From positions 1 to 39,311 of the forward strand of contig CASEIJ010000050.1 in NCBI GenBank assembly GCA_949288035.1: DNA of 39,311 nucleotides, written 5' to 3'. This DNA is from an uncultured Mycoplasmatota bacterium (lineage in GTDB: Bacteria > Bacillota_I > Bacilli_A > RF39 > UBA660). The position numbers were made by a program, and so were the translations under genes. The notes beneath the pieces are model-generated. The model saw only the letters and a program-made list of their open reading frames with translations. It searched no databases and was not told where the DNA came from. Within the stretch, counting starts at the first letter, position 1. Every line of letters starts with the position of its first letter. This document shows positions 3,480 through 33,508 of the stretch, one piece after another.

Positions 3480-3507
3480 ATTATATGAACGAAAAGTCAA
3501 GATATGA
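3480..3507 (-). promoter_or_regulatory. Candidate sigma-E promoter of popT
   Basis: On the minus strand TCATATC (3501-3507), a 13-base spacer and CATATAAT (3480-3487) match the sigma-E layout (about TCATATT, 13-14, CATACAAT). The same -10 octamer and spacing precede cwlJ. Confidence 0.55.
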
Positions 3508-3530
3508 AAAAAAAGAGCTATGCTCTTTTT
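3507..3530 (-). terminator. Rho-independent terminator after the P-type ATPase homologue
   Basis: AAAAAGAGC / GCTCTTTTT stem with loop TAT. On the minus strand it ends in a run of eight T. It overlaps the last codons and stop of the ATPase-like gene. Confidence 0.8.
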
Positions 3531-5557
3531 CGATAAAATAAAACGAAGAAACAATCAAATATGAATTCTATCATTGGTATGAAATAAATAGGCAACCAAC
3601 CAATCAATAATAACAATAATGAACAAACATGTATTAACAGAAATAAAATAATACCTATCCATGATTGTTTACGCAAACGATTTGCTGTTTTTTTCACTAC
3701 TTCTAAATCATTTCCATCATAGATTAATATCTCAGCATCATGACAAAAATCATCATCTATGCTTTTCATCATAATATTTAAATCAGCATGATGGTCAGCT
3801 AATAATTTTGGATGATTGGATACAAAAGCAAAACTTTTTTTCTCTTCAAAGCGATATCGTTCTAATGCTCGGTTCTTATCTGACAATGATAGATGACTTA
3901 AATAATTTGAGATTCCTAATTTCTGACAAACCATTTTAACAAAGTTTTCTGATTCACTACTGATTACCTTGATATGACGAAAACCACATTTACGACATTT
4001 ATTTAACCAATGCATGACATCTGGTTTCATTTCATCTCGCACAACAATATAACCAGCATATTCTTGGTCAATGGCAATATGTAAAACTGTTCCAATTTCT
4101 TGTACTTGTTCTTCTACCCAAACACCAAATTTTGTCAATAATTTTTCATTTCCGACTAACACTGTTTGTTTTTCTACATTTACCTTAACGCCTAGACCAG
4201 ATAATTCTTGATAATTACTTAAAATATTAGTTTGGATACGCTTTTTGTAACTATGTTTAATCGCTAAAGCCACAGGATTAATAGAATACTCTTCCGCACA
4301 AGCAACATAATATAATAATTCTTCATCACTATAACGAGTATGATTCACCACTTTAGCTACTATATCACGGCCATAAGTCATAGTATGTTCTAAATCAAAT
4401 ATAATATGTTTGATACGGCTTAATAAATCCAACGGCTCTATCCCTCTTACTAAAATACCTTTTTGTTTTAAACGGTTCCATTCTATATTCCAATATAATA
4501 AAATATATGCAACAATAAAACCACTACGAGATAATAATAACAAAGAACATATCAAAAAAAATGAAATATGGCTCTGTGGATCAATCAAAAAAATACTAAT
4601 AACTAATAGAAGTAATATCGATATCATCATCTTATAAACAAGAATACATTTTTTTATATGTTCTACTGTTCGAACAGACGATAAGGAACAATCCCTTACA
4701 AATTCTTCCATCTGAATCCACTTAGAATGCATAAAATCATGCGTTACTTGGATGGCAATTACTCCATTTATATTTAACATTCCTCCATATACTTCCATAT
4801 GTAAATGAGTTGGCATTTGTTTCTCATGTGGATTTAATTGATCATACATGACATGACTTTTACCATCGATAATAATACCATCCACAGGAATTTTTTCACC
4901 TGGTTTTACATAAATAATATCGTCAACCTGTACTTCCTTTATCGGAACACGAACCACATGATTTTCTCTTTTCATATTAGCAAACAACATAGATTCAGTC
5001 ATAGAAAATTGTTTGTTATATTTATAAGTATATAATATATGTTCAAACAAATTAACTCCATTTATCATGATAACAATCAATATAGAAAAAAACGGAGAAT
5101 GTACTAATAGTAAGACAATAACAACAATGAAAACAAATATACGTTCCTGCCAATCATAAAACTTGGAGAAAAAGTTTTCCTGTGGATAAAATAGTAAAAT
5201 AATGCTAATCACAAGACTTGCTATAAAAAATACTGTGGATAAAACATCTTGAGTTTGAAAAAAGTAATAAAAAGTAAATAAAAGAAGTGAAAAAATAAAT
5301 AAAGCTGTGGATAAAAATATTCTTTGCGGCTTTTTTTTGTGGATCATGATATCTTCATCAATCATTTTTATAATTGCTTTCATTTTCGTAAATAAAGACT
5401 TAGATATTTTCTTCGCTGAGATATTTAAAGTTTCATTCATATAATCTACAGAAACTTGATCCAATTGTGTTACTTTTTTTAATTCATTTTCAATTTTGAT
5501 AGCATCTTCTATCGTTTTTAATCCAATTAATTGATATTGTCTCACTATCTCACCCAC
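3518..5557 (-). CDS. Catalytically degenerate P1B-type (heavy-metal) ATPase homologue
   Basis: 679 residues with the full P1B layout: an N-terminal ferredoxin-like metal-binding fold (residues 8-70), membrane segments near 78-172, an actuator domain (195-275), two more segments (305-355), P and N domains (360-630) and two final segments (633-675). The fold is recognisable from PGEKIPVDGIIIDG, KGILVRGIEPLDLLSRI and LVGNEKLL. Yet the catalytic motifs are lost. DKTGT reads DLEHT (Asp388 kept; Lys, Thr and Gly gone). The CPC membrane motif reads RSG, TGES is replaced by LNPHEK, TGDN by SSESEN, GDGxND by VSNHPK, and the N-terminal CxxC by KTIED. The frame is intact over 2 kb, so it is a maintained pseudo-ATPase rather than a decaying gene. 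The start is uncertain: GTG at 5557 or GTG at 5545. Confidence 0.8.
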   Translation of the reverse strand: MGEIVRQYQLIGLKTIEDAIKIENELKKVTQLDQVSVDYMNETLNISAKKISKSLFTKMKAIIKMIDEDIMIHKKKPQRIFLSTALFIFSLLLFTFYYFFQTQDVLSTVFFIASLVISIILLFYPQENFFSKFYDWQERIFVFIVVIVLLLVHSPFFSILIVIMINGVNLFEHILYTYKYNKQFSMTESMLFANMKRENHVVRVPIKEVQVDDIIYVKPGEKIPVDGIIIDGKSHVMYDQLNPHEKQMPTHLHMEVYGGMLNINGVIAIQVTHDFMHSKWIQMEEFVRDCSLSSVRTVEHIKKCILVYKMMISILLLLVISIFLIDPQSHISFFLICSLLLLSRSGFIVAYILLYWNIEWNRLKQKGILVRGIEPLDLLSRIKHIIFDLEHTMTYGRDIVAKVVNHTRYSDEELLYYVACAEEYSINPVALAIKHSYKKRIQTNILSNYQELSGLGVKVNVEKQTVLVGNEKLLTKFGVWVEEQVQEIGTVLHIAIDQEYAGYIVVRDEMKPDVMHWLNKCRKCGFRHIKVISSESENFVKMVCQKLGISNYLSHLSLSDKNRALERYRFEEKKSFAFVSNHPKLLADHHADLNIMMKSIDDDFCHDAEILIYDGNDLEVVKKTANRLRKQSWIGIILFLLIHVCSLLLLLIGWLPIYFIPMIEFIFDCFFVLFYRKRA

Positions 5558-5567
5558 TTCTATCTAT

Positions 5568-5597
5568 ATCATAGTCGATGTCAAATTAGAAAGTCAA
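5568..5597 (-). promoter_or_regulatory. Candidate sigma-A promoter of the ATPase-like gene
   Basis: TTGACT (5592-5597), an 18-base spacer and TATGAT (5568-5573) on the minus strand, shortly upstream of the start. Confidence 0.5.
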
Positions 5598-5600
5598 CAA

Positions 5601-5621
5601 AAAAAGCAGAAAACTGCTTTT
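5601..5621 (-). terminator. Terminator after the zinc-ribbon/PH gene
   Basis: AAAAGCAG / CTGCTTTT stem with AAAA loop, followed on the minus strand by a T run. It overlaps the stop codon. Confidence 0.8.
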
Positions 5622-6198
5622 AATGATGGTTTGCACTATCGATCATATTTTTTACTTGATAGTAGGCTTCTTCTACATTTTTAATATCGTGAATATAAAT
5701 TCCGTAATCTTCACGATTAGAAGTATAGAGTGCTAAAGTACCACGGTGAAACATAGACTCAATCCATGACTGATGGATAGCTATATCACTAATGGTATTA
5801 TAACGAACACTATGCATAATTTTTCTTCCAAAACGTTCATGGTATTCTAAATGATCTTTGTAAAAACAATATTCAATTTTTTGAAAACGTAATTTTTTCA
5901 CAATAGCTTTCATGTCATACCATAAAAAGACTACAATATATAAAATCCAAATATAGTTTGGGCTATAATACTCATTCATCAATAAAAAATCTTGGAAATA
6001 AAAATTAATAAATGTTAAAAGTACTAAAATTAAAATTGTTTTTAAATCTGGTATTAATTCTGTCCATACACTACAAGTAGGATAAATTTTATATTCTATT
6101 TCGTTTTCCATATATTGGCTCTTATCTAAGAAGTCACCACAATATGGACAGTACTCAAACTTCTCATTCACATATTCTCCACAATTTTTACAAACCAT
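5620..6198 (-). CDS. Zinc-ribbon, PH-domain membrane protein
   Basis: 192 residues. The ATG at 6198 follows AAGGGGGAA; a longer frame to 6258 lacks a ribosome site. An N-terminal zinc ribbon has Cys3/Cys6 (CKNC) and Cys17/Cys20 (CPYC). Two hydrophobic segments lie near residues 55-75 and 85-105. The rest (about 110-190) is a beta-rich region with YCFYKDHLEYHERFG and the ISDIAI, LALYT and GIYIHDI strands, resembling bacterial PH domains (bPH2/YdbS type). Proteins of this type are common in Bacillota and their function is unknown. It has its own promoter and terminator. Its ribosome site GGGG can pair with CCCC in the leader (6207-6211 with 6223-6226). Confidence 0.7.
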   Translation of the reverse strand: MVCKNCGEYVNEKFEYCPYCGDFLDKSQYMENEIEYKIYPTCSVWTELIPDLKTILILVLLTFINFYFQDFLLMNEYYSPNYIWILYIVVFLWYDMKAIVKKLRFQKIEYCFYKDHLEYHERFGRKIMHSVRYNTISDIAIHQSWIESMFHRGTLALYTSNREDYGIYIHDIKNVEEAYYQVKNMIDSANHH

Positions 6199-6229
6199 AT
6201 AAAGTTCCCCCTTTTGTTTAACGGGGCAT

Positions 6230-6258
6230 ATTATAACATAAGTAACAAAAAAAGGCAA
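6230..6258 (-). promoter_or_regulatory. Sigma-A promoter of the zinc-ribbon gene
   Basis: TTGCCT (6253-6258), 17 bases, TATAAT (6230-6235), preceded by TGT as an extended -10. It overlaps the terminator of the neighbouring gene. Confidence 0.5.
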
Positions 6259-8778: not shown

Positions 8779-9207
8779 ATGGGGATCATTAAAGCAACAT
8801 CAAAAGAGCGAGATTTATTAGCTAGATTAATGCGGGCAGAAGCGACAGGAGAAGGAAATTTAGGGCAACTCATGGTTGGTAACGTTGTTGTAAATAGAGG
8901 CATTGCAAACTGTTTAACCTTTAGTAATGTCAACACAATCAGTGATGTAATTTATCAATCACCAGGAGGATTTACAGGAATAAATAGTCCATTATTTTAT
9001 AGTAATCCTACTACAGCAGAACGTAATCTTGCAGATCGTGTCATACGTGGTGAATATTTTCATCCAGCTACCAATGCATTATGGTTTTATGCCCCAGGAA
9101 CAGGGAATGCATGTCAAACCACTTGGTGGGGACAATATAATACGGGAAAATATAAAAATCATTGTTTTTATGCTCCTGATCCTGGAGAATGTAAAGAAAT
9201 TCACTAA
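8779..9207 (+). CDS. cwlJ: Spore cortex-lytic hydrolase CwlJ
   Basis: 142 residues, the same length as Bacillus subtilis CwlJ, with near-collinear motifs: IIKATSKERDLLARLMRAEA (catalytic Glu21 of the SleB/CwlJ Hydrolase_2 domain), GNLGQLMVGNVVVNR, a central FYSNPTTAER segment and the C-terminal KNHCFYAPDPGEC, where CwlJ has KSHCFYQPTAETC. There is no signal peptide, as expected for a mother-cell protein put into the spore coat. It degrades muramic-lactam cortex during germination. The ribosome site AAAGGAGGG is excellent. The usual partner GerQ is not visible in this window. A sigma-E-like promoter lies directly upstream. Confidence 0.9.
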   Translation: MGIIKATSKERDLLARLMRAEATGEGNLGQLMVGNVVVNRGIANCLTFSNVNTISDVIYQSPGGFTGINSPLFYSNPTTAERNLADRVIRGEYFHPATNALWFYAPGTGNACQTTWWGQYNTGKYKNHCFYAPDPGECKEIH

Positions 9208-9229: not shown

Positions 9230-10606
9230 TTATATTTGTAAAACTTGACCAATCGTCAAATTATTATTCACTAAATTGTTTTTTTCTTTTAATGCATCTA
9301 CTGTCGTTTGAAAACGTTGTGCGATATTCCATAAACTATCTCCAGCTTTTACAATATATGTCTGATTAGAATTTATATTACCTGGTAATTTTAACACTTG
9401 ACCAATATTTAAAATATTACTATTTAATCCATTCAAACGTTTTAACTCATCTACTGTTGTTCCAAAACGATTGGCGATACTCCACAAGCTATCTCCACTT
9501 TTTACTATATATGTATTGATAGAACTATCTGCATTATTTGAATTATTTTGTGGTACCTTTAATACTTGACCTACCTGTAAAGTAGTAGAAGTTAAATTAT
9601 TTAAATTTTGTAATTCACTAACGCTTATATCATATTTGCGGGCTATACTCCATAAGCTATCCCCGCTTTTTACTATATATGTACTTTCTTGGTTAATATT
9701 TGTATTTCCATTGTTGATTGGTAATTTTAATATTTGCCCAATTTGTAAAGTATTGGTATTTAAATTATTTAATGTTTTTAATTCAGGAACAGTTGTATGA
9801 AAACGATTCGCAATACTCCATAAACTATCTCCACTTTTTACTGTATAGGTATTTCCTTGACTATCATTTGTATTCTCATTTCCTGTTGGCAATTTCAAAA
9901 CTTGACCTACTTGCAGTGCATTGGTATTTAAATTATTCAGTCGTTTTATTTCGGCAACAGTCGTATTAAAACGATTGGCGATACTCCATAGACTGTCTCC
10001 ACTTTTGACTGTATAAGTACCTTCTATTTCTCCACCAGAATATGGTTTGCCAATATACTTCATCACACCACGGACAACTGCTTCTGCTAAGATATCATAA
10101 TCTTCTTTTAATTGCTCAGGATCATCTCCAGTACTATCTAAAAAACCATATTCTACAATTACTGGCTCTGTATTCATTCCTGTATCTCTATGAATGAAAT
10201 AATAATCTTTGGCAGTATTACTTGGTAATCTTCTTTGGAATGCTTCTCTCACATTTTGCCCACTTTTTTCTAATTCTGTTAAAATATCATTGGCTAAAGT
10301 TGCATCATCCCGAAGAGCATAAATTACTTCGGCACCATCACCACCCCCAGCATTGATGTGATTAGAAATAATAATGACTCCCTTCTCATCACCATATGCA
10401 TCCATAATACGATTTACACGCTCTGTAGGAGACAATGTTTCATCTGTAGTTCTAGTCATCGTAACAGGAATTCCAAGCTCACGAAAACGATTATACATAT
10501 ATTTAGAAATATCTAAAGTTAAATTTTTTTCTATAATACCATTTCCGGTTGCTCCACCATCCGTACCACCATGTCCTGCATCAATGACAATTCTTGGATT
10601 ATTCAT
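9230..10606 (-). CDS. N-acetylmuramoyl-L-alanine amidase with five LysM repeats, no signal peptide
   Basis: 458 residues; start at 10606 after AGGGGTGAA. An Amidase_3 zinc domain occupies residues 4-185, with ligands His12 (DAGHGG), Glu26 (IIEKN) and His83 (SNHIN) and catalytic Glu152 (VEYGF). Five LysM modules follow at about 197-239, 253-296, 309-352, 365-408 and 416-458, each with a variant of TYTVKSGDSLWSIANRF, joined by Asn/Ser-rich linkers. It cleaves the bond between MurNAc and the stem peptide. The N-terminus is cytosolic in character, so export by Sec is unlikely. Bacillus CwlC and CwlH, which lyse the mother cell under sigma-K, are also leaderless, and a sigma-K-like promoter sits here at 10623-10649. 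A mother-cell lysis or coat-bound cortex role is inferred. Confidence 0.85.
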   Translation of the reverse strand: MNNPRIVIDAGHGGTDGGATGNGIIEKNLTLDISKYMYNRFRELGIPVTMTRTTDETLSPTERVNRIMDAYGDEKGVIIISNHINAGGGDGAEVIYALRDDATLANDILTELEKSGQNVREAFQRRLPSNTAKDYYFIHRDTGMNTEPVIVEYGFLDSTGDDPEQLKEDYDILAEAVVRGVMKYIGKPYSGGEIEGTYTVKSGDSLWSIANRFNTTVAEIKRLNNLNTNALQVGQVLKLPTGNENTNDSQGNTYTVKSGDSLWSIANRFHTTVPELKTLNNLNTNTLQIGQILKLPINNGNTNINQESTYIVKSGDSLWSIARKYDISVSELQNLNNLTSTTLQVGQVLKVPQNNSNNADSSINTYIVKSGDSLWSIANRFGTTVDELKRLNGLNSNILNIGQVLKLPGNINSNQTYIVKAGDSLWNIAQRFQTTVDALKEKNNLVNNNLTIGQVLQI

Positions 10607-11820: not shown

Positions 11821-12753
11821 CTAATCTAAAAGTTCAATATCACGCCAATTATCTGGAAAACCAATTTTATTTAGTATTGTATTTAATGGAACAACATTCA
11901 CAATACCATCCAATCGATCAATCTCATAACTAAGTTCATTCATCATATCGGAAAACTCTTCAGAAGATAACATATATTTCATAATAATAATTAAAGCAAA
12001 TAAATCATTTTTCCCATAATTATATTCATCATCTGTTTTATCTATATGAAGCGCATAATGATATTTATTATCAGGTATGGAACGTTGTGTCCTATGATCA
12101 TATAAAATATCTTCATGAGCACATAAGTTTCTAAAATTAGAAAGAAGTGCTAAAAAGACACCTAATGTTTCTGTATCAATATGATAAAAGTCAGCAATTA
12201 CTAATTGATCTTCTGATTTTAAAATCGTATATAACTCAGAAACAATTCCAAAGGACAATACTTTTACCAAGATCCACATTGGAATATATCCGTAATTTAA
12301 TAGATAGTGAGAGGTCGCAGTATGCTGCTTTCCATTAACGCGAATTTGTCTTTTCATCTTAGACAAAATATCATGTACTTGTCTTGTTTTCATAGAATCT
12401 TGCGTAAAGTTATTTGGGTTTAAGTATTCTTTTTCTTTATATCCATATTTTCTAGATAATTGATAACTTATAATAGATTTTATATTGTTTTCAATAATGA
12501 GCAAATATTTAAACATTAAATTTCTAAGACTACGGTCGAAAGTAAAAGTTGCATATAATTCGTCAAAAGTTGTTCCGGTAATAAATTGATCATTTTTAGG
12601 ACTTTTTGCAAATAAATGACGATATCCATTAATAAAAAAATAATTCTCACGGAATAAAATTGCCTTTGCTTTATCATAGTCCTGAATCACCAAGCCACGT
12701 TCTTCTAAGATAGCAAGTTGTTCATCCAGGGTTTTAAATATCTTGCTCCTCAT
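11821..12753 (-). CDS. Abi_2 (AbiD/AbiF) family protein with HEPN motif
   Basis: 310 residues from the ATG at 12753 (GGTGAG just upstream; the longer frame to 12822 lacks support). Family features appear in order: KTLDEQLAILEERGLVI with YFFINGYRHLF, FDRSLRNLMFKYLLIIENNI (residues 72-91), a PMWILVKVLSFGIVSELY block (158-175) and RNLCAHEDILYDHR (208-221). The last contains the RX4H motif of HEPN RNases (Arg208, His213). Abi_2 proteins include lactococcal AbiD and AbiF, which abort phage infection, and this fold often acts as an RNase. Here it sits between cell-wall genes and is coupled to htrA, not in an obvious defence island, so a phage role is possible but unproven. Confidence 0.8.
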   Translation of the reverse strand: MRSKIFKTLDEQLAILEERGLVIQDYDKAKAILFRENYFFINGYRHLFAKSPKNDQFITGTTFDELYATFTFDRSLRNLMFKYLLIIENNIKSIISYQLSRKYGYKEKEYLNPNNFTQDSMKTRQVHDILSKMKRQIRVNGKQHTATSHYLLNYGYIPMWILVKVLSFGIVSELYTILKSEDQLVIADFYHIDTETLGVFLALLSNFRNLCAHEDILYDHRTQRSIPDNKYHYALHIDKTDDEYNYGKNDLFALIIIMKYMLSSEEFSDMMNELSYEIDRLDGIVNVVPLNTILNKIGFPDNWRDIELLD

Positions 12754-12769
12754 ACTCTCACCTAGGTTA

Positions 12770-12789
12770 ATTATATCACAAAAATTGTG
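12770..12789 (-). promoter_or_regulatory. Extended -10 promoter with adjacent dyad, abi-htrA operon
   Basis: TATAAT (12770-12775) preceded by TGA on the minus strand; no good -35. The spacer holds the inverted repeat CACAA-AAA-TTGTG (12777-12789), a possible operator. Confidence 0.4.
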
Positions 12790-12836
12790 GTGAAATATGT
12801 TTTTTTTATGTTTTATTATCAAATAGAAAAATATAA

Positions 12837-13571: not shown

Positions 13572-14861
13572 CTAATAAATAAATCCTTTAACAGGCATTT
13601 GAACCAAATTACTATATTCTTGAACACTACTATAGGTATTGACACGTGTTAATTGTTCAGCACGAGCCACGGTACTTTCAACGTTATGTGGATCCCCATT
13701 TACATTCGCTTCTGAAATCGTAATAGATGTTACATTTCCAGCAGCATCATATTTTACATCTTCTACAAAAGCAACATGTCCATATTCTGTTCCTCCCAAT
13801 ACCATAACCGAATGTTTTTTTGGAGTACTACTTACATGGCTTTGATCAGCACTATTGATCCAATCAGTTGCATTTCCACTACTGACAGGAACAACACCAT
13901 GTGTTTGATAATATCTTCTTGAAGCAAACCAAGTACACTGTCCAATTAATAAATTATTTCCTACGCCATACTTCTTTACATCTAAATCAGAAAAATTAGG
14001 AATTTGTTCATCCCATTCCGATATAGAAGTAATTGGATAATTGGTATTATTAATTCCAATTGAACCATCTGCCATAATACGGAATAGCTGTCCTCCAGCT
14101 TCTGGACGTAATTGAATCTGTGCCTTATTAATTTTATCTAAATCAGTATATCCATATTGCTCATTCCATAATTTTTTAGAAAGATACACAGCAAGTGTTT
14201 CATAATTAAAATGAATATTTCCATCATCTCCAAAAATATACATTGGAAAACCAAAATCCTTTTCAAACTGTTCTTCTTTTCCTTTATATTTTTCTAACAA
14301 TTGATTTAAAGCACCTTCATAAAGTGAGAAATTATCTCTAATTTTTTGAATAAACTGTTCTTTTTGTTGAGCTGTAGCATTTTTAAATGTATCATTCAAC
14401 AAAGCTTCTATATAATCATTACTATTCAACTGATTGTTAATTTGATATACTTCTGAAGATGCACTGTTTTTAAGATAAATACCATTTTTATCAAATGTAA
14501 ACTCATTTCCAAAAGCATCTTTAATAATACCAGTTGCTTGAGACTGGCTAATTTGTTCATATACTGGTGTTGTATATGTAATCGTCGTACCATTTTTTAA
14601 TTTTATAATATTTCCTTGATAAGATTCAACCATGTCGAAAGTAATTCCAGTTATATTGGCTTTTTTTAAACTCTCTACAGCTTTTTCTTCTGTTGACTTT
14701 AAGAGAGGAATATTTAAGCCCTCAAAAGATACTTCTTCTACTTCTTTCTTTTTATCAGTTCCTGCCTTTGGATATATACTAGAAACATTAGAAGTGGATT
14801 GATTTGTATCAAAATCAATACCTACATTTGCTAATAAAGATGTTTTAATTTTTGTTGCCAT
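13572..14861 (-). CDS. CHAP-domain peptidoglycan hydrolase, probable type VII substrate
   Basis: 429 residues; AAGGAGGAG precedes the ATG at 14861. The C-terminal CHAP domain (about 300-425) has Cys309 in GQCTWFASRRY, His362 in GHVAFVEDV and the polar residue of ISEANVN near 384-386. CHAP enzymes cut peptidoglycan as amidases or endopeptidases. The first 290 residues have no signal peptide or membrane helix and no family I recognise; a beta-like segment (85-140) and an acidic helical region (150-235) are visible. It is the last gene of the operon holding EssC, EsaB and WXG-type proteins, so export by that system is inferred. There is no immunity gene beside it, so it more likely remodels the producer's own wall, as Sec-exported EssH does for the Staphylococcus Ess system. 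Confidence 0.75.
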   Translation of the reverse strand: MATKIKTSLLANVGIDFDTNQSTSNVSSIYPKAGTDKKKEVEEVSFEGLNIPLLKSTEEKAVESLKKANITGITFDMVESYQGNIIKLKNGTTITYTTPVYEQISQSQATGIIKDAFGNEFTFDKNGIYLKNSASSEVYQINNQLNSNDYIEALLNDTFKNATAQQKEQFIQKIRDNFSLYEGALNQLLEKYKGKEEQFEKDFGFPMYIFGDDGNIHFNYETLAVYLSKKLWNEQYGYTDLDKINKAQIQLRPEAGGQLFRIMADGSIGINNTNYPITSISEWDEQIPNFSDLDVKKYGVGNNLLIGQCTWFASRRYYQTHGVVPVSSGNATDWINSADQSHVSSTPKKHSVMVLGGTEYGHVAFVEDVKYDAAGNVTSITISEANVNGDPHNVESTVARAEQLTRVNTYSSVQEYSNLVQMPVKGFIY

Positions 14862-14873
14862 ATTGCTCCTCCT

Positions 14874-15122
14874 TTATAATTTTTTTGAAATCATAGGAAT
14901 GATATCATAAATTAAATGTTTTTTTAAATATGCTTGGTTATCCTGTATCAATTCAAACTCTTTTTCACAACCAATATGATGGTCCACCATAATGCTTTTT
15001 TCAACACTACTTCTAGTTGTTTGATAATCATCTTCTAATTCTTCCATATTTTTTTCAAGCGTTCTCATTTGTTTTAATAACAACTGATATTGTTGCTTTG
15101 TGATCATTTCCTCTGAATTCAT
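14874..15122 (-). CDS. Small helical protein of the type VII locus (82 residues)
   Basis: 82 residues, almost entirely helical and charged. It forms a likely two-helix hairpin: residues 5-45 (QYQLLLKQMRTLEKNMEELE) and residues 50-80, with a VDHHIG turn. The start at 15122 overlaps the end of the gene before it, and AAGGA lies upstream. No enzyme motif. By position (just before the CHAP gene) and form it resembles the small alpha-helical partner proteins that accompany LXG-type substrates of Firmicutes type VII systems and help target them. This role is inferred, not shown. Confidence 0.6.
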   Translation of the reverse strand: MNSEEMITKQQYQLLLKQMRTLEKNMEELEDDYQTTRSSVEKSIMVDHHIGCEKEFELIQDNQAYLKKHLIYDIIPMISKKL

Positions 15123-15123
15123 A

Positions 15124-15417
15124 TTACATCATATCCTTTAACTTATTTTCTACTTTCACTTTTGTCTCTTGATATCCAAAAAGAGCTTTTTCCATAGATG
15201 ATATAGCATACAATTGTTTTTCTTTAATCATACGAAATTTTGTTAATAATTCATTATCTACTGTGTGAAAATCATCGGCATTATCAGAAATATAATCCTG
15301 TGATAACGTTACTAATAACTTGTTCATTGAATCAAATAATAGTGATTCCTCTTTGTAATACATTTTTAACTTTTCGATTGCTTGTGCAAATTTCTCTTCA
15401 TGAATAAATTGTTCCAT
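15124..15417 (-). CDS. Small helical protein of the type VII locus (97 residues)
   Basis: 97 residues, ATG at 15417 after GGGGAA. Predicted all-alpha: a first helix (1-42, EKFAQAIEKLKMYYKEESLL), an acidic turn (SDNADDFHTV) and a second helix (52-97). Size and hairpin form are ESAT-6-like, but there is no W-x-G in the turn. It lies one base from its upstream neighbour and is surely co-translated. Probable partner or adaptor of the secreted CHAP protein; family not recognised. Confidence 0.6.
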   Translation of the reverse strand: MEQFIHEEKFAQAIEKLKMYYKEESLLFDSMNKLLVTLSQDYISDNADDFHTVDNELLTKFRMIKEKQLYAISSMEKALFGYQETKVKVENKLKDMM

Positions 15418-15418
15418 A

Positions 15419-15973
15419 TTAATATTCCCCTTCTATCTCTGATAATTTTTGAATTTGCAATCTATTTATCTCTTTATTTATATGATTTTCTAATTCTTCT
15501 GTTTTATTAAATAATTCTAATAATTGGTCTTTTAGTTTTTGAACTTGTTGTTCCAATTTTATAAATTTACTTTGTTCCTCTGTTAATAATGGAGCAACTT
15601 CTGGATACATATCTAAAGAAATGGCATGAAGTATTTGTATACAACTATGAATTTTTTCTATATATTGATCAAATGAATGAATCACATTTTGTTTTTCACT
15701 TAACTGAATTTGTAATCTAGTTCCAATCTTTTCATATTCACCAATCATATAATCGTAGATACTTTTTAAACTATATAATTCATCAATAACTGTTTTTACT
15801 TGGTTTTTTTCAGTATACATTGCCTCATAAAATTTTTTAGAACGATTATCATTCCAAAAAAAAGAAGAAGAAGAAATTACATGATAAAAATTCATATAAA
15901 TTTCTTCATATTCTTCTATACAATGATTTAATTGTAATACCGTTGTCTTTAATTTATCAATATGAATTTCCAT
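15419..15973 (-). CDS. WXG-like helical protein of the type VII locus (184 residues)
   Basis: 184 residues; AGGTGATA precedes the ATG at 15973. The N-terminal 100 residues are a helical hairpin whose turn reads FFWNDNRSKKFYEAM, with Trp40 where WXG100 proteins have W-x-G and the usual following Ser and Phe. The C-terminal part (110-184) is a coiled-coil-like helix with KLEQQVQKLKDQLLELFNKT. It resembles a WXG100 protein with a coiled-coil extension and may be a secreted partner or chaperone. It starts 28 bases after the double WXG gene and belongs to the same transcript. Confidence 0.6.
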   Translation of the reverse strand: MEIHIDKLKTTVLQLNHCIEEYEEIYMNFYHVISSSSFFWNDNRSKKFYEAMYTEKNQVKTVIDELYSLKSIYDYMIGEYEKIGTRLQIQLSEKQNVIHSFDQYIEKIHSCIQILHAISLDMYPEVAPLLTEEQSKFIKLEQQVQKLKDQLLELFNKTEELENHINKEINRLQIQKLSEIEGEY

Positions 15974-16001
15974 ATTATCACCTGGTATTCTTTATATCAT
16001 T

Positions 16002-16646
16002 TTATCCTTCAGAAGAAAATGCTTGTGATACTTTTCCTTCTGTATCAGAATAACTTTCAACTGTATTGTTGATTGCTGTTCTTGATTGATTTGAAATTTC
16101 TTGAGTAGCATTATCAATCTTAGTTTTAATAACTCCTAGGGAATTAATTAAATTACTTGCTTGATTTCCACCAATAAATCCACAGTTTTGTACAGCTTGT
16201 TGTGCACTTGTTAGTGCTGATTTTGCTGAATCGGCAATTGAAGTTAATTGATTAGCAACTGTTGTTGCTGATGATAAATCAATTCCTCTTACTCCACCAA
16301 TATTTTCGCGAATTACACTAGTATCAATTGTTTTTGAAATTGCTGAGAATGATTGTGGAGAATATGAAGAATCAGTTTGTGCTGCCCAAGCTTGTCCTGC
16401 ACTATTCATTGAAGCTACTACGCTTTCAAAAATTGCATTTGAACTTGTAATTAAATTATCGATTGCTGGCTTAAAAGAATTGTTAAAAAATGTTTGTGCT
16501 TGATTACAAGCCCATTTATCAGCCATTCCATTTACAAAACGTGTTTGCATATCATTCCCTAGTGCTTGAATTAAATTTTCATATGCTGCTTTTACAGAAT
16601 TAATTGATGAATTTACTACATCAGGATTAAATCCAGTTAATGCCAT
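16002..16646 (-). CDS. Double-length WXG100-type (ESAT-6-like) protein
   Basis: 214 residues; AAAGGAGGC before the ATG at 16646 fixes the start. The first half (1-105) is an ESAT-6-like hairpin with ADKWACNQAQTFFNNSF at the turn (Trp45-Ala-Cys in place of W-x-G). The second half (about 115-210), Ala/Ser-rich and helical, looks like another hairpin without the Trp. Near the C-terminus SYSDTEGK contains Y-x3-E, the general type VII export signal. WXG proteins are usually about 100 residues, so this is a double-length variant. It is likely a main secreted substrate or structural component. It has its own strong promoter with a dyad at +1, separate from essC. Confidence 0.75.
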   Translation of the reverse strand: MALTGFNPDVVNSSINSVKAAYENLIQALGNDMQTRFVNGMADKWACNQAQTFFNNSFKPAIDNLITSSNAIFESVVASMNSAGQAWAAQTDSSYSPQSFSAISKTIDTSVIRENIGGVRGIDLSSATTVANQLTSIADSAKSALTSAQQAVQNCGFIGGNQASNLINSLGVIKTKIDNATQEISNQSRTAINNTVESYSDTEGKVSQAFSSEG

Positions 16647-16666
16647 ATCTATGCCTCCTTTAATAA

Positions 16667-16684
16667 TAGATAGTATCCTATCTA
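16667..16684 (-). promoter_or_regulatory. Operator-like dyad at the WXG transcription start
   Basis: TAGATAG-TATC-CTATCTA, a perfect 7-bp inverted repeat just downstream of the -10 and upstream of the ribosome site. It could bind a repressor or fold in the leader RNA. Confidence 0.5.
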
Positions 16685-16689
16685 ATTTC

Positions 16690-16718
16690 ATATTAATATA
16701 AGTTTTTTAAAAAGTCAA
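16690..16718 (-). promoter_or_regulatory. Sigma-A promoter of the WXG-CHAP segment
   Basis: TTGACT (16713-16718), 17 bases, TAATAT (16690-16695). Upstream, 16724-16742 carries GTTTACAATA twice in tandem (second copy ending ATT), a possible activator site or UP-like sequence. Confidence 0.65.
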
Positions 16719-16735
16719 ATATTGTTTACAATAGT

Positions 16736-17005
16736 TTACAATTGACTACGTGCAACAAAAAACAATTCTGTACCATTACGGATATCCGTATTTAATACTA
16801 ATTCATTATTTTGATAAATTTTACCAGTATCTTTATTTAACAATAAATAATTCACATCTGTGGGAAGAGAAAAACTACTTAAATCCGAAATTGATTTCAT
16901 AAACAAAATTTTCAATCTCCATATCACTTCATTAATAGGTACAAAAACATCAAAACTTGTATCTAATTCTGGTACAATTAACCTTACTAATACTTTATTC
17001 TTCAT
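16736..17005 (-). CDS. esaB: EsaB/YukD-like ubiquitin-fold protein of type VII secretion
   Basis: 89 residues from the ATG at 17005 (GGTG six bases upstream; a GTG at 17014 is the alternative). Short beta strands and a helix follow the ubiquitin pattern of EsaB/YukD: KVLVRLIVPELDTSFDVFVP, a helix (IWRLKILFMKSIS), then NYLLLNKDTGKIY and GTELFFVARSQL. EsaB is a small cytoplasmic component or regulator of the Firmicutes ESX machinery. It overlaps the end of essC by 11 bases, so the two are translationally coupled. Confidence 0.8.
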   Translation of the reverse strand: MKNKVLVRLIVPELDTSFDVFVPINEVIWRLKILFMKSISDLSSFSLPTDVNYLLLNKDTGKIYQNNELVLNTDIRNGTELFFVARSQL

Positions 17006-20000
17006 ATTCATCACCCGTATCTTCTGTTACAAAAAAGTCAATCCATTTACAAAGCGTTGCTAAACCATCATCAACAAAATATCCCATGTCATTCTTATAA
17101 GTCTTTGTCATATCACGTGTAACATTTGATAAATGCAATAAACTTTGATCAGAGATACCTCTACCAATCCATACCCCTTGATTTACATTAAATATACTTG
17201 TAAACCATGGTTCAAATACATACTTTTTAATTTTTAATGATGAATCAGCAATTACCAAAGACAAATTCTCATACTCCTTTATCTTCTGTACAAATACCTG
17301 TAGACGATTCGTATCTTTCAATTTTGTCATCCATCTATCAAAATCATAGATAAATACAACAAGTTGAGGTTTCTGAGATAAAGAAGAATATTTTTCTAAT
17401 GATGAAATCATATCATCTAGTATTTCATTCAGGTGTTGATTATAATATTGATGAAAACAAGTTTGATATTTCTCTAAATGAGAAGATGCATCCCATAACA
17501 TAGTATGAACACCTTTCATTTGTTCTAATACAAGTGATAAACTACAAATAAAATGTGTCGTATTTTCTAACTTTGTAGAAGTAACAATATTTCCTAAATT
17601 ATTTAAATAATCAACATAACAAATTTGTAAGTCACTTTTGACAATTCCAATTGGAACACGATGAATATTGGATATATATTCTTGAATATCAGAAAGTGTA
17701 ATAACATCCGGAAGTGTTGGAATTCTTTTTGCACTTACTTGATTTTTATTTTTCTCTCCTTCTACAAACTCTAAAATCTTTTGATTTACATGATCATCTT
17801 CAGGAAAAATATGAGCCACCTGGAATTCATGAATACCATCATTTAATAATAATCCACGGCCGACAATATCACGTGGCATTACTTTTACTCTTTGATTAAA
17901 GATAGATGTATACTCATCATTATCTTTTACATGGAAAGCATAAATATTCCTACAATTTTGCGCTATTTTACTTGGGAGTGAATTAAAGGCATTGACTGTA
18001 AAGATAAAAATAACACCATATCGTTCAGAATCACGTACTAATTCTGGTAACAGTTCATAAATATCTGGATTATTCTCATATATAGAATCAAAATTATTCA
18101 TAATAATTACTTGTATTGGTAAATCATTTTTTCCTGATTCTAAATATGTATGATACTCTCCTCCATAATCACGTAAAATACGTTTTCTATTTTGCAATTC
18201 TTCACGAATCATTTTCAATAAATTATGATATTTTTCATCTTCTGATGCAAAGACCATACCACCAATATGTGGACAAGATAAGTAACTTCTTAACGATTCA
18301 GAACCATAATCAATCATATAGAACTGAATTTGTGATGATAGATAATTCTTCATAGTAGAATACAATAATGTATTTAAGAATAATTCTCTCTCTGCTCCAT
18401 CTGTACCATAAACAATGGTATTACCATCATCTAAATAGTGATATGCAACAATACCCTGTTCTTGTTTTTCTGGGGCATCATATTCACCTATAATAGCCAT
18501 TGGACTATTTTTATCAAATGATATTTGATATTTACTTTGTAAATCACTTTCTAAAATAAAATCAGGAACATTTTCTAACCATAACTTTCTAGTATGTTTC
18601 TTTACTTGATTAGCAACCATAATAATCATATTCATAATTGCTGATAGTTGATCCCCCATAGCAGTTGTTTTATTCCCACTAGAAATTTGCGTATTCTTAA
18701 TATCATTCCCACTATCGTCAATAAAATTAACACTACGATCAATATGTTTTATAATACGTTCTGATGGATAATATTTATCACCACACCACGCAGATTGGCC
18801 GAGCGCAAAATATTCATTATATCCTACTTCCAAATAGAAACGTCCTGTTTGTCTTAAATAAGCAGCATCTGGTACTTTTAATACCTCTTTACTATCTGAC
18901 TCATCTTGTACTTTTAAACAAACACGAAATTTGGTATTAGACCAAATTTGATCATTTACTACACCACTTGGTTTTTGCGTTGCTAAAATAAGATGAATTC
19001 CTAAACTACGCCCGATACGAGCAACACTAATCAAATTATCCATAAATTCGGGTTGCTGTACCTTTAATTCGGCAAATTCATCACAAATAATAAATAAGTG
19101 AGGAACAGGTTCTTGTAATTTACCTTCTTTATAAAATCTTTGATATTTATAAATATCAATTGTACTTTCTCCTAACTGTTCTCTTGCTTGGTTAAATATT
19201 TCTTGTCGTCTTTTAATTTCACTATCAATACTTACCAGAGTACGATTTAACTCTGCCTTATCCAAGTTTGTAATCGTTCCTGCTAAATGAGGTAAAATCA
19301 CATTTGTCGCCTTGTTTTCAAAGGCAAATGCTAATCCTCCACCTTTATAGTCAATTAAAATAAAGGCAACATCATCAGGACTATAATTAATCGCCATAGA
19401 TAAAATATAAGTAATAATAAATTCTGATTTACCACTACCAGTCATACCAGCAATTAATCCATGTGGACCATGTGCTTTCTCATGTAGATCTAAATACATT
19501 AAATTTTCTTGACTATCAACACCAATTTCTGCTTTTAAACTCGTCGTAGAATCATTGGTATTCCAACGATTTAAAATATTCAATTGTTCTACTTTTCCTA
19601 CTTTTTCCATCTCTAAAAATGAAATAGAATCTGGAATAGAAGAAACACCATCTTCAAACTCAATTGGTATATTTGATAACTGTTTTACAACATCCATCAT
19701 ATTGATATCATACTTGATTTCATCTGTAAATGTAACTTGTTCCTGATTTTCATAAGAATTTTTCAAAATACCTGAACTATTTTCTCCTACAGAAATAAAA
19801 TTATTACATTTACTTGGTAACTTACTCAATCTATTTTCTAGGATGACTAAACTAAAACCTAAATTTTCATCAGTTTCTGTAATCAATTTAATTAACTCGT
19901 GATATCTTACTTGATCATAATCATCAATCACAATAAAATAATATGGCTTTAAGGTTACTGAATTATGATTTTCCTTTTGCTGCATACGATTATGAATCTC

Positions 20001-21569
20001 TAACTGTAAATAATCAGCAACATTCTTTGCACTCTCTAAATCATCTGCAAAAAAACGAATACTCTCCTCATTATTAAAACAATGCTTTAAATACCTTAAA
20101 TAATTCCATTGTTCTTTTCTTTCTTGATTCGTAAACAATACAATCTTTACATCTTCATAACTATAAAATGTCATTAATTGTAACAATATATTATGCATTA
20201 AATGCATTACTTTATAACTCGTTCCCATAATGGCAGTTGTCTTATTTTGATAAAATGAGTAACCAATGGGAACATTAGAAATATATTGAAACTCTTCTAC
20301 TAATTGATCTGCTTTTTTACGAAGTTCATCTTCATCTACAGTAAATCCTTCATCAGGATATTCAATTTTAACATCTAAATGTTCTTTTCCAATTCCTAAA
20401 CGTATTACTAAAAAATCACTCTGATCAATACGTTTATCCCAAAAATTAATTCCCTGATGTTTGATAATGTTTAAACACTGATCAACAGTCAATAAATTCT
20501 CATATAAAATATCAGTCTGTAACTTTGCTTCTTGTAATAATTCTTCTTTTTTTTCATTCAAATATTTTGTATATTTTTCCACCGTTTCAATACGTTTTCT
20601 TTTCTTCATTTTACGATTATAAACTTGTGTTACCATAGGCCATACAATCATAGAAATCAACATCGCACCACTTGTAACCAACTGTGGCCATGAAGAAGCC
20701 CAAGTTGCTTCTTTTGCTGAAATCCTCATCAACGTATTCAAAAGCATAGTTCCAGACATAACCCCCATCGTTAACATTGGGCCTACTACTAATGCAATCG
20801 GCATTTCCTCTTTACTTTCATCTCGTGGAGGTGCACTTAACTTCACAACTTTTGTCTCAATCATTCTACGTAAACGTGGTGGTTTCGAAAAATAAGAATT
20901 TTTCGAATATAATTCTAAATTCTTTATTTCAATATTTTCTGGTTCTTCTTCGTTTGGAAATTGATAAACAACTAATTTACTAAGCTCCAAATTTACAAGA
21001 ATCTTTTGATCTAACCGACGAATAAACACAGTACCGTTTAAAAAAATCATTTGTAAACCGTATATATCTATAAAATCGCCATTTTTTATATAATAAGCAT
21101 TTTCTTTTAAGGCAATTCGATTGACATAAATATTACCTTTTCCAATACGTTCTATGATTAAATGATTTTCACGATAATATATTTTAGCAAACATTCCTTG
21201 CATATAAGGAATCAAATATTGAATACTACAATCTTGTTGATTGCCAATCGTAATTTGTAGATCTTTTTGATATGTATATAACTGAAACCCAGGAAATATT
21301 ACTTCTTGAGCATATATCAAATAATTTTTTCCATCTCTTCTCAAAACATAAAATTGGTTTGGCTCTAATTTCGTCTCTTTTACATACTGATTTTGATCGA
21401 TAATTTGAACATCTGAAGTACTGCATAATACCCAAGTTCCATCTTTGGCTTCAATATGAATCAATTTACTTTCTTCTTGCGTATTTTCATCAAAACCAAA
21501 ACTACCAAATACTTGTTGTGGCAATAAAAAATCAATTTTCTTATCATTCAAATACAGTATTATCTTCAT
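16995..21569 (-). CDS. essC: EssC, FtsK/SpoIIIE-family motor ATPase of type VII secretion
   Basis: 1524 residues from the ATG at 21569 (GGGTGAGG upstream). Two FHA-like domains (about 1-90 and 95-195; the second with ITIGNQQDCSI and GNIYVNR) precede two membrane helices (about 257-282 and 293-314). A degenerate ATPase-like region (430-640) follows, then the first canonical FtsK domain with Walker A GMTGSGKS at 708-715, DYKGGGLAF and Walker B LFIICDE (Asp830, Glu831). The second and third ATPase domains are degenerate; the second has GTDGAERE (1055-1062) where a Walker A is expected. This matches EssC of Staphylococcus in order and size. It energises export of WXG and other substrates through the cell membrane. 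It heads the operon; EsaA, EssA and EssB are not seen in this window. Confidence 0.9.
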   Translation of the reverse strand: MKIILYLNDKKIDFLLPQQVFGSFGFDENTQEESKLIHIEAKDGTWVLCSTSDVQIIDQNQYVKETKLEPNQFYVLRRDGKNYLIYAQEVIFPGFQLYTYQKDLQITIGNQQDCSIQYLIPYMQGMFAKIYYRENHLIIERIGKGNIYVNRIALKENAYYIKNGDFIDIYGLQMIFLNGTVFIRRLDQKILVNLELSKLVVYQFPNEEEPENIEIKNLELYSKNSYFSKPPRLRRMIETKVVKLSAPPRDESKEEMPIALVVGPMLTMGVMSGTMLLNTLMRISAKEATWASSWPQLVTSGAMLISMIVWPMVTQVYNRKMKKRKRIETVEKYTKYLNEKKEELLQEAKLQTDILYENLLTVDQCLNIIKHQGINFWDKRIDQSDFLVIRLGIGKEHLDVKIEYPDEGFTVDEDELRKKADQLVEEFQYISNVPIGYSFYQNKTTAIMGTSYKVMHLMHNILLQLMTFYSYEDVKIVLFTNQERKEQWNYLRYLKHCFNNEESIRFFADDLESAKNVADYLQLEIHNRMQQKENHNSVTLKPYYFIVIDDYDQVRYHELIKLITETDENLGFSLVILENRLSKLPSKCNNFISVGENSSGILKNSYENQEQVTFTDEIKYDINMMDVVKQLSNIPIEFEDGVSSIPDSISFLEMEKVGKVEQLNILNRWNTNDSTTSLKAEIGVDSQENLMYLDLHEKAHGPHGLIAGMTGSGKSEFIITYILSMAINYSPDDVAFILIDYKGGGLAFAFENKATNVILPHLAGTITNLDKAELNRTLVSIDSEIKRRQEIFNQAREQLGESTIDIYKYQRFYKEGKLQEPVPHLFIICDEFAELKVQQPEFMDNLISVARIGRSLGIHLILATQKPSGVVNDQIWSNTKFRVCLKVQDESDSKEVLKVPDAAYLRQTGRFYLEVGYNEYFALGQSAWCGDKYYPSERIIKHIDRSVNFIDDSGNDIKNTQISSGNKTTAMGDQLSAIMNMIIMVANQVKKHTRKLWLENVPDFILESDLQSKYQISFDKNSPMAIIGEYDAPEKQEQGIVAYHYLDDGNTIVYGTDGAERELFLNTLLYSTMKNYLSSQIQFYMIDYGSESLRSYLSCPHIGGMVFASEDEKYHNLLKMIREELQNRKRILRDYGGEYHTYLESGKNDLPIQVIIMNNFDSIYENNPDIYELLPELVRDSERYGVIFIFTVNAFNSLPSKIAQNCRNIYAFHVKDNDEYTSIFNQRVKVMPRDIVGRGLLLNDGIHEFQVAHIFPEDDHVNQKILEFVEGEKNKNQVSAKRIPTLPDVITLSDIQEYISNIHRVPIGIVKSDLQICYVDYLNNLGNIVTSTKLENTTHFICSLSLVLEQMKGVHTMLWDASSHLEKYQTCFHQYYNQHLNEILDDMISSLEKYSSLSQKPQLVVFIYDFDRWMTKLKDTNRLQVFVQKIKEYENLSLVIADSSLKIKKYVFEPWFTSIFNVNQGVWIGRGISDQSLLHLSNVTRDMTKTYKNDMGYFVDDGLATLCKWIDFFVTEDTGDEYEE

Positions 21570-21594
21570 AAGCCTCACCCTTATTATCTCTTCC

Positions 21595-21623
21595 ATCATA
21601 TCACAAATCCAAACAAAAAAGAA
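21595..21623 (-). promoter_or_regulatory. Possible promoter of essC
   Basis: TATGAT (21595-21600) with TGA before it (extended -10) and a weak TTCTTT at 17 bases (21618-21623), inside the preceding terminator. Confidence 0.3.
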
Positions 21624-21643
21624 GAGCTACTCAACCCTTCTTT
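21618..21643 (-). terminator. Terminator of the glycan locus
   Basis: Minus strand AAAGAAGGG pairs with CTCTTCTTT (one G-U) around an eight-base loop, followed by a T run; overlaps the last stop of the glycan cluster. Confidence 0.75.
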
Positions 21644-22530
21644 GCATTTTTATCTTGATTAAAAATAAATAATTTACTAAATATATAGTTAATCACAATC
21701 ACAACTACATTCATAATCACTTTTGCAATCATCTTGTTAGCCATCATAACACTTACAAACAAGTACATTCCAACCATATCTACTACATAAGAAAACAAGC
21801 GAGCAGCAAAGAAAGAACTAATTTCTTTCGTAAGTTCCTTACGATTGGTAGTCTTACTCTCAAAAACAAATACTTTATTTGTAACATATGCGAAAACAAC
21901 TGACAATATCCAAGCAATTGTATTATTGACATAAGTATTTATTCCCATTAAATCCATCAAGAAAAAGGAAACAATATTAACAACTGTAGTCAATCCTCCA
22001 AATACTAAATAATTAATCATCTCTCGATACTGATTATACCAACTTGTATGATTGTCTTTTTTAATGTAGTTATCAATTAATTGAATAAATTTCTTTTGGT
22101 TTGAATGAAATTTCTTAGGTTTAAATTTCTTTATTTTTTGAATCACCGTTCCTAATTCATTCAAATCATCGACACCTAATAAATATCCATCTTTTTCAAA
22201 CTCTGTTATAATTTGAATTTGATGATCATTTACATGTTCTTTATATTTTTTTAAACGAGGAACAGCAATTATTTTTTTATTTTTCTTTAAACTATCTAAA
22301 ATGGTTCCTACACCACCATGAGTAATAATATAATCAGCTTGTTCGATATACTGATTAAATTCATCAATGGAAAGAAAATCAATCAATTTCATATGATTTG
22401 ACTTATACTTTGTTTTTCCACTTTGAACAACCACATCTTCTTGGATCATACCTTTTTCTATTTCACTATCAATTGCTTTTAACAATCGTGAAAAATCTTT
22501 ATCATTTGTTCCTAACACTACAAAAACCAT
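21631..22530 (-). CDS. Fusion of Alg13-like glycosyltransferase and GtrA-family membrane domain
   Basis: 299 residues from the ATG at 22530, which shares one base with the stop of the Alg14-like gene (TAATG). Residues 1-155 follow the Alg13/PssE type of GT28 C-terminal half: MVFVVLGTND at the start, ADYIITHGGVGT (His71) and KYKEHVNDHQ. Residues 170-290 are a GtrA-like domain with four membrane helices (YLVFGGLTTVVNIVSFFLM, ending in NVVVIVINYIFSKLFIF). Alg13-like proteins need an Alg14-like membrane partner, which is the preceding gene. GtrA proteins are thought to flip polyprenyl-phosphate sugars made by GtrB, encoded just upstream. The fusion links the catalytic half to a membrane flippase-like part. 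Last gene of its unit; a terminator overlaps the stop. Confidence 0.75.
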   Translation of the reverse strand: MVFVVLGTNDKDFSRLLKAIDSEIEKGMIQEDVVVQSGKTKYKSNHMKLIDFLSIDEFNQYIEQADYIITHGGVGTILDSLKKNKKIIAVPRLKKYKEHVNDHQIQIITEFEKDGYLLGVDDLNELGTVIQKIKKFKPKKFHSNQKKFIQLIDNYIKKDNHTSWYNQYREMINYLVFGGLTTVVNIVSFFLMDLMGINTYVNNTIAWILSVVFAYVTNKVFVFESKTTNRKELTKEISSFFAARLFSYVVDMVGMYLFVSVMMANKMIAKVIMNVVVIVINYIFSKLFIFNQDKNAKKG

Positions 22531-23000
22531 TAGTAAATCCAACCTCCATATTTCGCATCTTTATATAATTTTGTCATATCTTTCCATTGTACAATAAATA
22601 AGTTAGAAATTGGATAAAGTAATTTCCCAGTGGCTGTTTTGGTATGAATATTGGCAAATGATTCAATATATATAATCCGACTACCCATAATTTTTCCAAT
22701 ACAACACATTGGCCCTGCTGTATGTGTACCAGTTGTAATAATATAATCTGGATGTACTTTTAGATAAAAATATACACTTTTAAAACAATTGGCTAATAAT
22801 TTAAACGGGTATGTGATAGGATGAGATTTTGTTCCATAAATTAAAAAATCAATACGTCCTGCATATTTATCTTTTAAACTTTTACTTGCTTTTGTTTTCT
22901 CAGTAATAATATGATAATCATATTTGGAAAACATACTTTCTAGTTGCATCAACTCGTTAAAATGGCCCCCTGTTGATGAAATAAATAATACTCTTTTCAT
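22530..23000 (-). CDS. Alg14/PssD-like glycosyltransferase subunit
   Basis: 156 residues from the ATG at 23000 (GGTGAAG upstream). KRVLFISSTGGHFNELMQL with the GGH loop, then PDYIITTGTHTAGPMCCIG and RIIYIESFANI are the hallmarks of the Alg14/PssD/EpsE membrane-associated half of two-part glycosyltransferases. It would recruit the Alg13-like half encoded directly downstream and transfer a sugar to a lipid-linked acceptor on the inner membrane face. The two genes are coupled by a TAATG overlap and have their own promoter. Confidence 0.85.
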   Translation of the reverse strand: MKRVLFISSTGGHFNELMQLESMFSKYDYHIITEKTKASKSLKDKYAGRIDFLIYGTKSHPITYPFKLLANCFKSVYFYLKVHPDYIITTGTHTAGPMCCIGKIMGSRIIYIESFANIHTKTATGKLLYPISNLFIVQWKDMTKLYKDAKYGGWIY

Positions 23001-23016
23001 GTTCTTCACCATCTTT

Positions 23017-23045
23017 ATTATACAATACTTTCCGGTTTTCGTCCA
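23017..23045 (-). promoter_or_regulatory. Sigma-A promoter of the Alg14/Alg13-GtrA pair
   Basis: TGGACG (23040-23045), 17 bases, TATAAT (23017-23022) on the minus strand. Confidence 0.5.
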
Positions 23046-23050
23046 TGAAA

Positions 23051-23073
23051 AAAGAGCTTTAAATTATAGCTCT
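23051..23073 (-). terminator. Terminator after the GtrB-like gene
   Basis: AGAGCT / AGCTCT stem with a nine-to-ten-base A/T loop and six T on the minus strand; overlaps the stop at 23072. Confidence 0.65.
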
Positions 23074-24034: not shown

Positions 24035-24037
24035 AAA

Positions 24038-27195: not shown

Positions 27196-27205
27196 AATAC
27201 ACTTC

Positions 27206-27958: not shown

Positions 27959-27981
27959 GCTAACACTCCATTTCTCTTTTT

Positions 27982-28010
27982 ATTATAACATAATGCCTAA
28001 TAGAAACCAA
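27982..28010 (-). promoter_or_regulatory. Sigma-A promoter of the exporter unit
   Basis: TTGGTT (28005-28010), 17 bases, TATAAT (27982-27987) with TGT before it (extended -10). Confidence 0.55.
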
Positions 28011-28037
28011 ATAAATCACTGAAAATCAGTGATTTAT
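28011..28037 (-). terminator. Terminator inside the glycan locus
   Basis: ATAAATCACTGA / TCAGTGATTTAT, a perfect 12-bp stem around a three-base loop, overlapping the stop of the GT4 gene. Only three T follow on the minus strand, so read-through is possible. Confidence 0.65.
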
Positions 28038-30021: not shown

Positions 30022-30022
30022 A

Positions 30023-32514: not shown

Positions 32515-32517
32515 AAC

Positions 32518-33495: not shown

Positions 33496-33508
33496 ATCAT
33501 CATCCTAT

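Follow-up and report, generated by a model that had tools for sequence, protein, structure and literature searches.

The cycle of P-type pumps requires an aspartate nucleophile together with a lysine and the Mg-binding GDGxND motif, the TGE motif for dephosphorylation, and a site within the membrane. Pseudoenzymes such as pseudokinases are well documented. PfGCβ of Plasmodium contains a degenerated P4-ATPase-like domain that has lost most signature residues and is fused to a guanylate cyclase (PMC6592433). The N domain of ATP7B H1069Q, in which the histidine of the HP motif is replaced, binds ATP in vitro with a nearly wild-type Kd (76.5 vs 74.3 μM) (PMC3203118), and a His462Gln fragment of CopA was crystallised with AMPPCP-Mg (PDB 3a1e); loss of the HP histidine thus need not abolish nucleotide binding. 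In a search of the open literature, which included only a minority of subscription papers, no bacterial P-type ATPase turned up that is retained despite the loss of its catalytic motifs. A candidate for such a protein is encoded in the window analysed here, a DNA stretch of 39,311 nt in total.

The pseudo-P1B-ATPase gene (P0001) is an open frame of 679 codons, as a first-pass annotation had proposed without naming the strand, which is minus (Table 1). Judged from the orthologue starts, the GTG at codon 5 is likely the real start. The protein matched the Pfam families E1-E2_ATPase (65 bits, cut-off 28) and Hydrolase (42 bits, cut-off 26), both of which were also matched in 4/4 orthologues. The best NCBIfam match was the heavy-metal P-type ATPase family TIGR01525 with 182 bits, below its curated cut-off of 346, and a phmmer search of the PDB gave an E value of 6e-30 against CopA structures. 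Homology to P1B-ATPases, as read from these matches, is beyond chance; the protein is a homologue of ZntA/CadA-type P1B-ATPases that nevertheless falls outside their functional definition. It retains the eight membrane helices and the complete pump domain order (HMA-TM-A-TM-P-N-P-TM), the latter in agreement with the first-pass annotation.

Table 1. Features of the pseudo-P1B-ATPase locus (window positions; residue numbers refer to the 679-residue frame).
Feature	Positions	Strand	Remarks
Pseudo-P1B-ATPase gene P0001	3518..5557	-	679 codons; stop 3518-3520; likely start GTG 5545
HMA-like N-terminal domain, residues 1-70	5348..5557	-	CxxC lost (Cys replaced by Thr/Ala and Asp)
First membrane block, residues 71-190	4988..5347	-	four hydrophobic segments; fast-evolving
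A (actuator) domain, residues 191-290	4688..4987	-	TGE lost; otherwise 49% invariant, four orthologues
Second membrane block, residues 291-372	4442..4687	-	CPC site (344-346, 4520-4528) lost; 1/25 near-invariant pump columns kept
DLEHT replacing DKTGT, residues 388-392	4382..4396	-	invariant in four orthologues
N (nucleotide-binding) domain, residues 401-500	4058..4357	-	most conserved part; E422, S425, G454, G456, G469, N470 kept; HP His lost
P domain second half, residues 501-610	3728..4057	-	GDGxND, TGD lost; D508, K511, K561 kept
C-terminal membrane pair, residues 611-679	3521..3727	-	pump Lys (643), Asp (664) lost
Own promoter TTGACTTT-N10-ATCGACTATGATATA	5565..5597	-	-35 TTGACT, 18 nt, -10 TATGAT
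Intrinsic-terminator-like hairpin ending upstream bPH2 gene	5602..5621	-	from scan; same element by eye in G002, G003, G004
Hairpin and T-run over/after stop codon, probable own terminator	3507..3530	-	by eye; not returned by scan

AlphaFold2, supplied with 29 aligned sequences that included intact relatives, gave a model with a mean pLDDT of 75.8, mostly 80–92 in the N and P domains; with two sequences the pLDDT was 34. The top 15 Foldseek matches of the prediction were all P1B-ATPases, which VIA-align also ranked first. The predicted N domain superimposed on that of CopA (2voy_J) with a Z score of 17.9 and an rmsd of 1.6 Å over 107 residues. Because the alignment contained intact relatives, the model indicates compatibility of the sequence with a P1B fold rather than independent proof of the detailed fold.

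The motifs were compared in an alignment of the 4 pseudo-pump orthologues with 50 intact ZntA-like proteins from the same bacterial family. The phosphorylation motif DKTGT, present in 50/50 intact relatives, reads DLEHT in 4/4 orthologues, with loss of the Lys, Thr and Gly. TGE of the A domain is absent, residues 242-244 being NPH, NPH, NLN and FNS across the four orthologues, and the CPC membrane metal site is absent as well (RSG, HIG, DTE and CVD at 344-346). Neither the membrane Lys nor the Asp of the zinc site is found (HQKQ at 643 and EKEP at 664 across the four). GDGxND is deleted or replaced in 4/4 orthologues, leaving S580-gap-N-H in the window protein, where TGD is replaced by S533-S-E and the HP motif by N427-P (NP, NP, SP and SK in the four orthologues). 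The first-pass readings of SSESEN for TGDN and VSNHPK for GDGxND hold for the window species; these replacements vary among orthologues, unlike DLEHT. Its statement that every catalytic motif had been lost is correct for DKTGT, TGE, CPC, GDGxND, TGD and CxxC, but goes too far in that Asp388, Thr392, Lys561 and the ATP pocket of the N domain remain. Residues D388, T392, G396, E422, S425, E451, G454, G456, G469, D508, K511 and K561 are kept in 4/4 orthologues, and the Glu, GxG and GN of the nucleotide pocket (E422, G454, G456, G469 and N470) are likewise invariant. Among pump columns conserved at ≥95%, the pseudo-pump keeps 6/8 in the N domain, 5/11 in the A domain, 3/8 and 3/19 in the first and second P segments, and 2/47 in all membrane blocks (N vs membrane, Fisher p = 2.5e-5). 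On account of the residues lost and kept relative to the 50 relatives, the machinery for phosphorylation and transport has been lost and the nucleotide pocket is mostly present.

Five genomes of the genus were sampled, including the window's own, and the orthologue was detected in four. The clade sample thus consists of four sequences, at least some of them from metagenome bins. Besides the window protein there are three congeneric syntenic orthologues with 81, 54 and 38% identity, the last from G004. The orthologue was not detected in G001, which is 68% complete and whose contig breaks at the locus beside a transposase-like ORF; this ORF, of the UPF0236 type by eye, opens the contig near the expected pseudo-ATPase region (L114:1-1272). 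The closest orthologue pair gave a dN/dS of 0.177 (95% bootstrap 0.13-0.21), compared with 0.146 for the intact paralogue; the argument rests on this pair, more distant ones being near synonymous saturation. By segment, the same pair gave 0.06 for the first P segment plus N, 0.10 for HMA, 0.13 for A, and 0.29-0.38 for the membrane blocks. Invariant columns make up 57% of the N domain and 49% of the A domain, and 6-17% of the membrane blocks, the reverse of the intact paralogue, whose membrane blocks are 65-83% invariant. Constraint is therefore inverted in the pseudo-pump, with conservation in the N and A domains and drift in the transport helices.

The first-pass annotation had taken the long frame as an argument against decay, and maintenance of the protein was borne out by dN/dS, by the orthologues and by a conserved promoter (see below). 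The contrary case, close orthologues with an intact DKTGT and relaxed selection, was checked; the DKTGT Lys, TGE, GDGxND and CPC are lacking in all four syntenic orthologues at a dN/dS of about 0.18. Dead catalysis combined with purifying selection is strongly supported by these sequence comparisons.

The gene looks like its own transcription unit, because it has a private promoter and hairpins on both sides. All 23 specified bases of the promoter are identical in 4/4 genomes, once per genome and always at the pseudo-ATPase; the match is perfect even in G004, whose protein shares only 38% identity. The promoter was called from sequence, and its assignment is based on this cross-species identity and not on the consensus scan, which by itself yields promoter-like sites no more often than it does in shuffled DNA. 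With two mismatches, its 15-base core recurs at a few further sites per genome, near the level of a reversed-pattern control; the complete element has a single copy in each genome, and a shared promoter regulon was rejected. Upstream, the terminator-like hairpin separates the promoter from the bPH2 gene; downstream, a hairpin with a T-run lies over or just beyond the stop codon in 4/4 orthologues (by eye). The gene is therefore unlike an operon member with PopT, whose gene is only a syntenic neighbour. Searches with Pfam and NCBIfam identified no coat gene among the ORFs scanned, which were all but a few small ones. The link to the envelope or sporulation that the first-pass annotation had drawn from PopT and coat genes is thus not supported, and a cluster or operon function with either was rejected in view of the promoter and the flanking hairpins. 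The upstream gene (5620-6258) encodes a protein with a zinc ribbon and a bacterial PH domain (bPH_2) that is 77-96% identical between species. The bPH_2 protein gene lies directly before popT in G078 (L096), with no ATPase between.

Several other genes in the window were recognised. The ORF at 16995-21599 encodes the type VIIb secretion ATPase EssC (TIGR03928, 950 bits); small ORFs and a CHAP hydrolase (13572-16691) adjoin it, and together they may form a T7SSb locus, in a genome of 1.2 Mb. A SleB/CwlJ-like hydrolase (8779-9207, plus strand) scored 53 bits with TIGR02869, under the cut-off; each of the related loci L074, L075, L076 and L114 has a 142-aa ORF in that position and orientation. 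The ORF at 9230-10606 encodes an Amidase_3 protein with at least five very high-scoring LysM repeats, for which the matching ORFs of relatives at the locus are shorter. An Abi_2 (abortive infection-like) protein (11821-12822; Pfam, 145 bits) is flanked by a trypsin/PDZ protease and an amidase. The region 21631-34453 contains a polysaccharide biosynthesis cluster of the PssD/Cps14F type with several glycosyltransferases, an ABC-2 transporter and an O-antigen ligase-like protein.

Profile searches of 386 genomes from the family, 385 from the order and 395 from the class returned nothing between 1121 bits (within the genus) and 294 bits, and the best relatives outside the genus whose loci were opened (11 and 7) all had intact pump motifs. 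Because these searches yielded only intact P1B-ATPases elsewhere, the pseudo-pump appears confined to one genus, as far as sampled. A 294-aa match beside a glucosaminidase in G051 (L107) was set aside, since it resembles the N-terminal region of a typical P2-type ATPase. Two sister genera of the same family, g2 and g28, carry an ArsR-type regulator (assigned by eye) and an intact ZntA beside or near popT and a homologue of the 2280-2642 gene, and the ZntA proteins of g2 number among the intact proteins that match the pseudo-pump best. The pseudo-pump carries a fused HMA domain, which the proteins of g2 and g28 lack. In the tree, the four pseudo-pumps form one clade (100/100) on a stem of 3.43, outside the intact paralogue of their own genus. 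Descent from a popT-linked ZntA-like pump is suggested with moderate confidence because of this long stem branch. A recent duplication of the same-genome intact paralogue is unsupported, the pseudo clade not being nested with it, although its placement is uncertain given the stem.

Because all elements of the pump cycle but the Asp are gone, catalytic turnover by the protein is very unlikely. Constraint on the A and N domains together with a surviving ATP pocket makes nucleotide binding by the N domain, which is small and probably soluble, plausible as judged from the pocket residues, and indicates that the protein is more than inert. The reading that we put forward, and hold at even chances, is a pseudo-pump that serves as a membrane-anchored scaffold or regulator, its A and N domains responding to ATP/ADP and acting on a putative partner. 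A ZntA/CadA-type pump, probably beside popT, would have been converted to a dedicated pseudo-pump in the genus ancestor. It would bind no metal in the membrane, form no aspartyl-phosphate and undergo no E1/E2 cycle; the eight-helix membrane part would mainly anchor the protein and the cytosolic A and N domains would carry the function. Nucleotide at the N domain would set the arrangement of A and N and hence the contact with the partner protein. That the N domain binds nucleotide, that the protein switches conformation and that there is a partner, whatever its identity, are our inferences. The pseudo-ATPase with a structural, sensory or scaffold role suggested by the first-pass annotation holds in that the protein is maintained and its motif losses are shared, and is here narrowed to constraint in the A and N domains with the ATP pocket kept. 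A metal sensor was rejected because the HMA CxxC, the CPC and the Lys and Asp of the membrane have gone, and no more than two Cys are invariant.

The N and A domains may instead be conserved as protein-binding surfaces of a purely structural scaffold in which nucleotide binding has been lost. Thirteen positions in the A domain and 14 in the N domain are invariant in pseudo-pumps but rare among pumps, as a new interface would predict, and the HP His and both Asp of GDGxND are lost; the pocket glycines and Glu could be kept for folding. We consider this unlikely, if worth serious attention, since E422, G454, G456, G469 and N470 match the ATP pocket of ATP7B and CopA and are kept amid the loss of other signatures. 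Covalent chemistry might also persist, at Asp388 through altered motifs or as a HAD-type phosphatase with D-x-E for D-x-D, given that Asp388, Glu390, Thr392, Ser533 (motif II) and Lys561 (motif III) are invariant in 4/4 orthologues. However, motif I is DLE and not DxD, the DKTGT Lys is Leu, and the acids that bind Mg in motif IV (GDGxND) have been deleted or substituted, with no conservation. An acid in motif IV is required by HAD phosphatases and P-type ATPases alike, and this reading is highly improbable. Equally improbable is a regulatory or dominant-negative subunit in a pair with the intact ZntA paralogue that the same genome encodes (G000 C31:36012-37796). Such a paralogue is present in G000, G001, G002 and G003, but the listing for G004, where the pseudo-pump is retained, shows none of that kind; P1B-ATPases are not known to require pump-pump heteromers. 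A decaying pseudogene or a binning or assembly artefact is scarcely credible and was rejected: the gene does evolve faster than all others in its neighbourhood, with 3.43 changes per site along its stem branch, but the frames are full-length in four species with identical surrounding gene order, dN/dS is 0.18, its bootstrap interval lying well below 1, and the private promoter is the same in four genomes.

A pump of this kind, with the ATP-binding domain conserved and the transport path drifting, would mean that the P-type fold is reusable as a nucleotide switch or scaffold, and that annotation by domain match alone mislabels such proteins as metal pumps. More tentatively, and at somewhat less than even chances, the protein may represent a stand-alone bacterial P-type pseudo-ATPase that serves a single genus as a membrane regulator sensing ATP/ADP, and that has discarded the chemistry and transport path of a pump but kept the nucleotide domain and private promoter.

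Compared with ZntA/CadA-type (Zn/Cd) P1B-ATPases, represented by the zinc pump structures 4umv and 4umw and by the intact family copies L028 and L029, the pseudo-pump shows 26-30% identity and shares the HMA-TM-A-TM-P-N-P-TM order, the eight membrane segments, the ATP pocket of the N domain and Asp388 and Thr392 of the phosphorylation loop. Unlike these pumps, it is without the Lys, Thr and Gly of DKTGT, TGE, GDGxND, CPC, the HP His, the HMA CxxC and the zinc-site Lys and Asp, and its conservation pattern is inverted. The CopA His462Gln P/N fragment and ATP7B H1069Q resemble it in that the HP His is replaced, and nucleotide still binds in those two; they carry a single change in an otherwise normal pump, whereas here the entire machinery for phosphorylation and transport has disappeared. 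PfGCβ is the nearest conceptual precedent that we found, being likewise a P-type ATPase-derived domain kept without catalytic signatures. It belongs to the eukaryotic P4 class and is part of an enzyme fusion, whereas the pseudo-pump is stand-alone, bacterial and P1B-derived, and has its own promoter.
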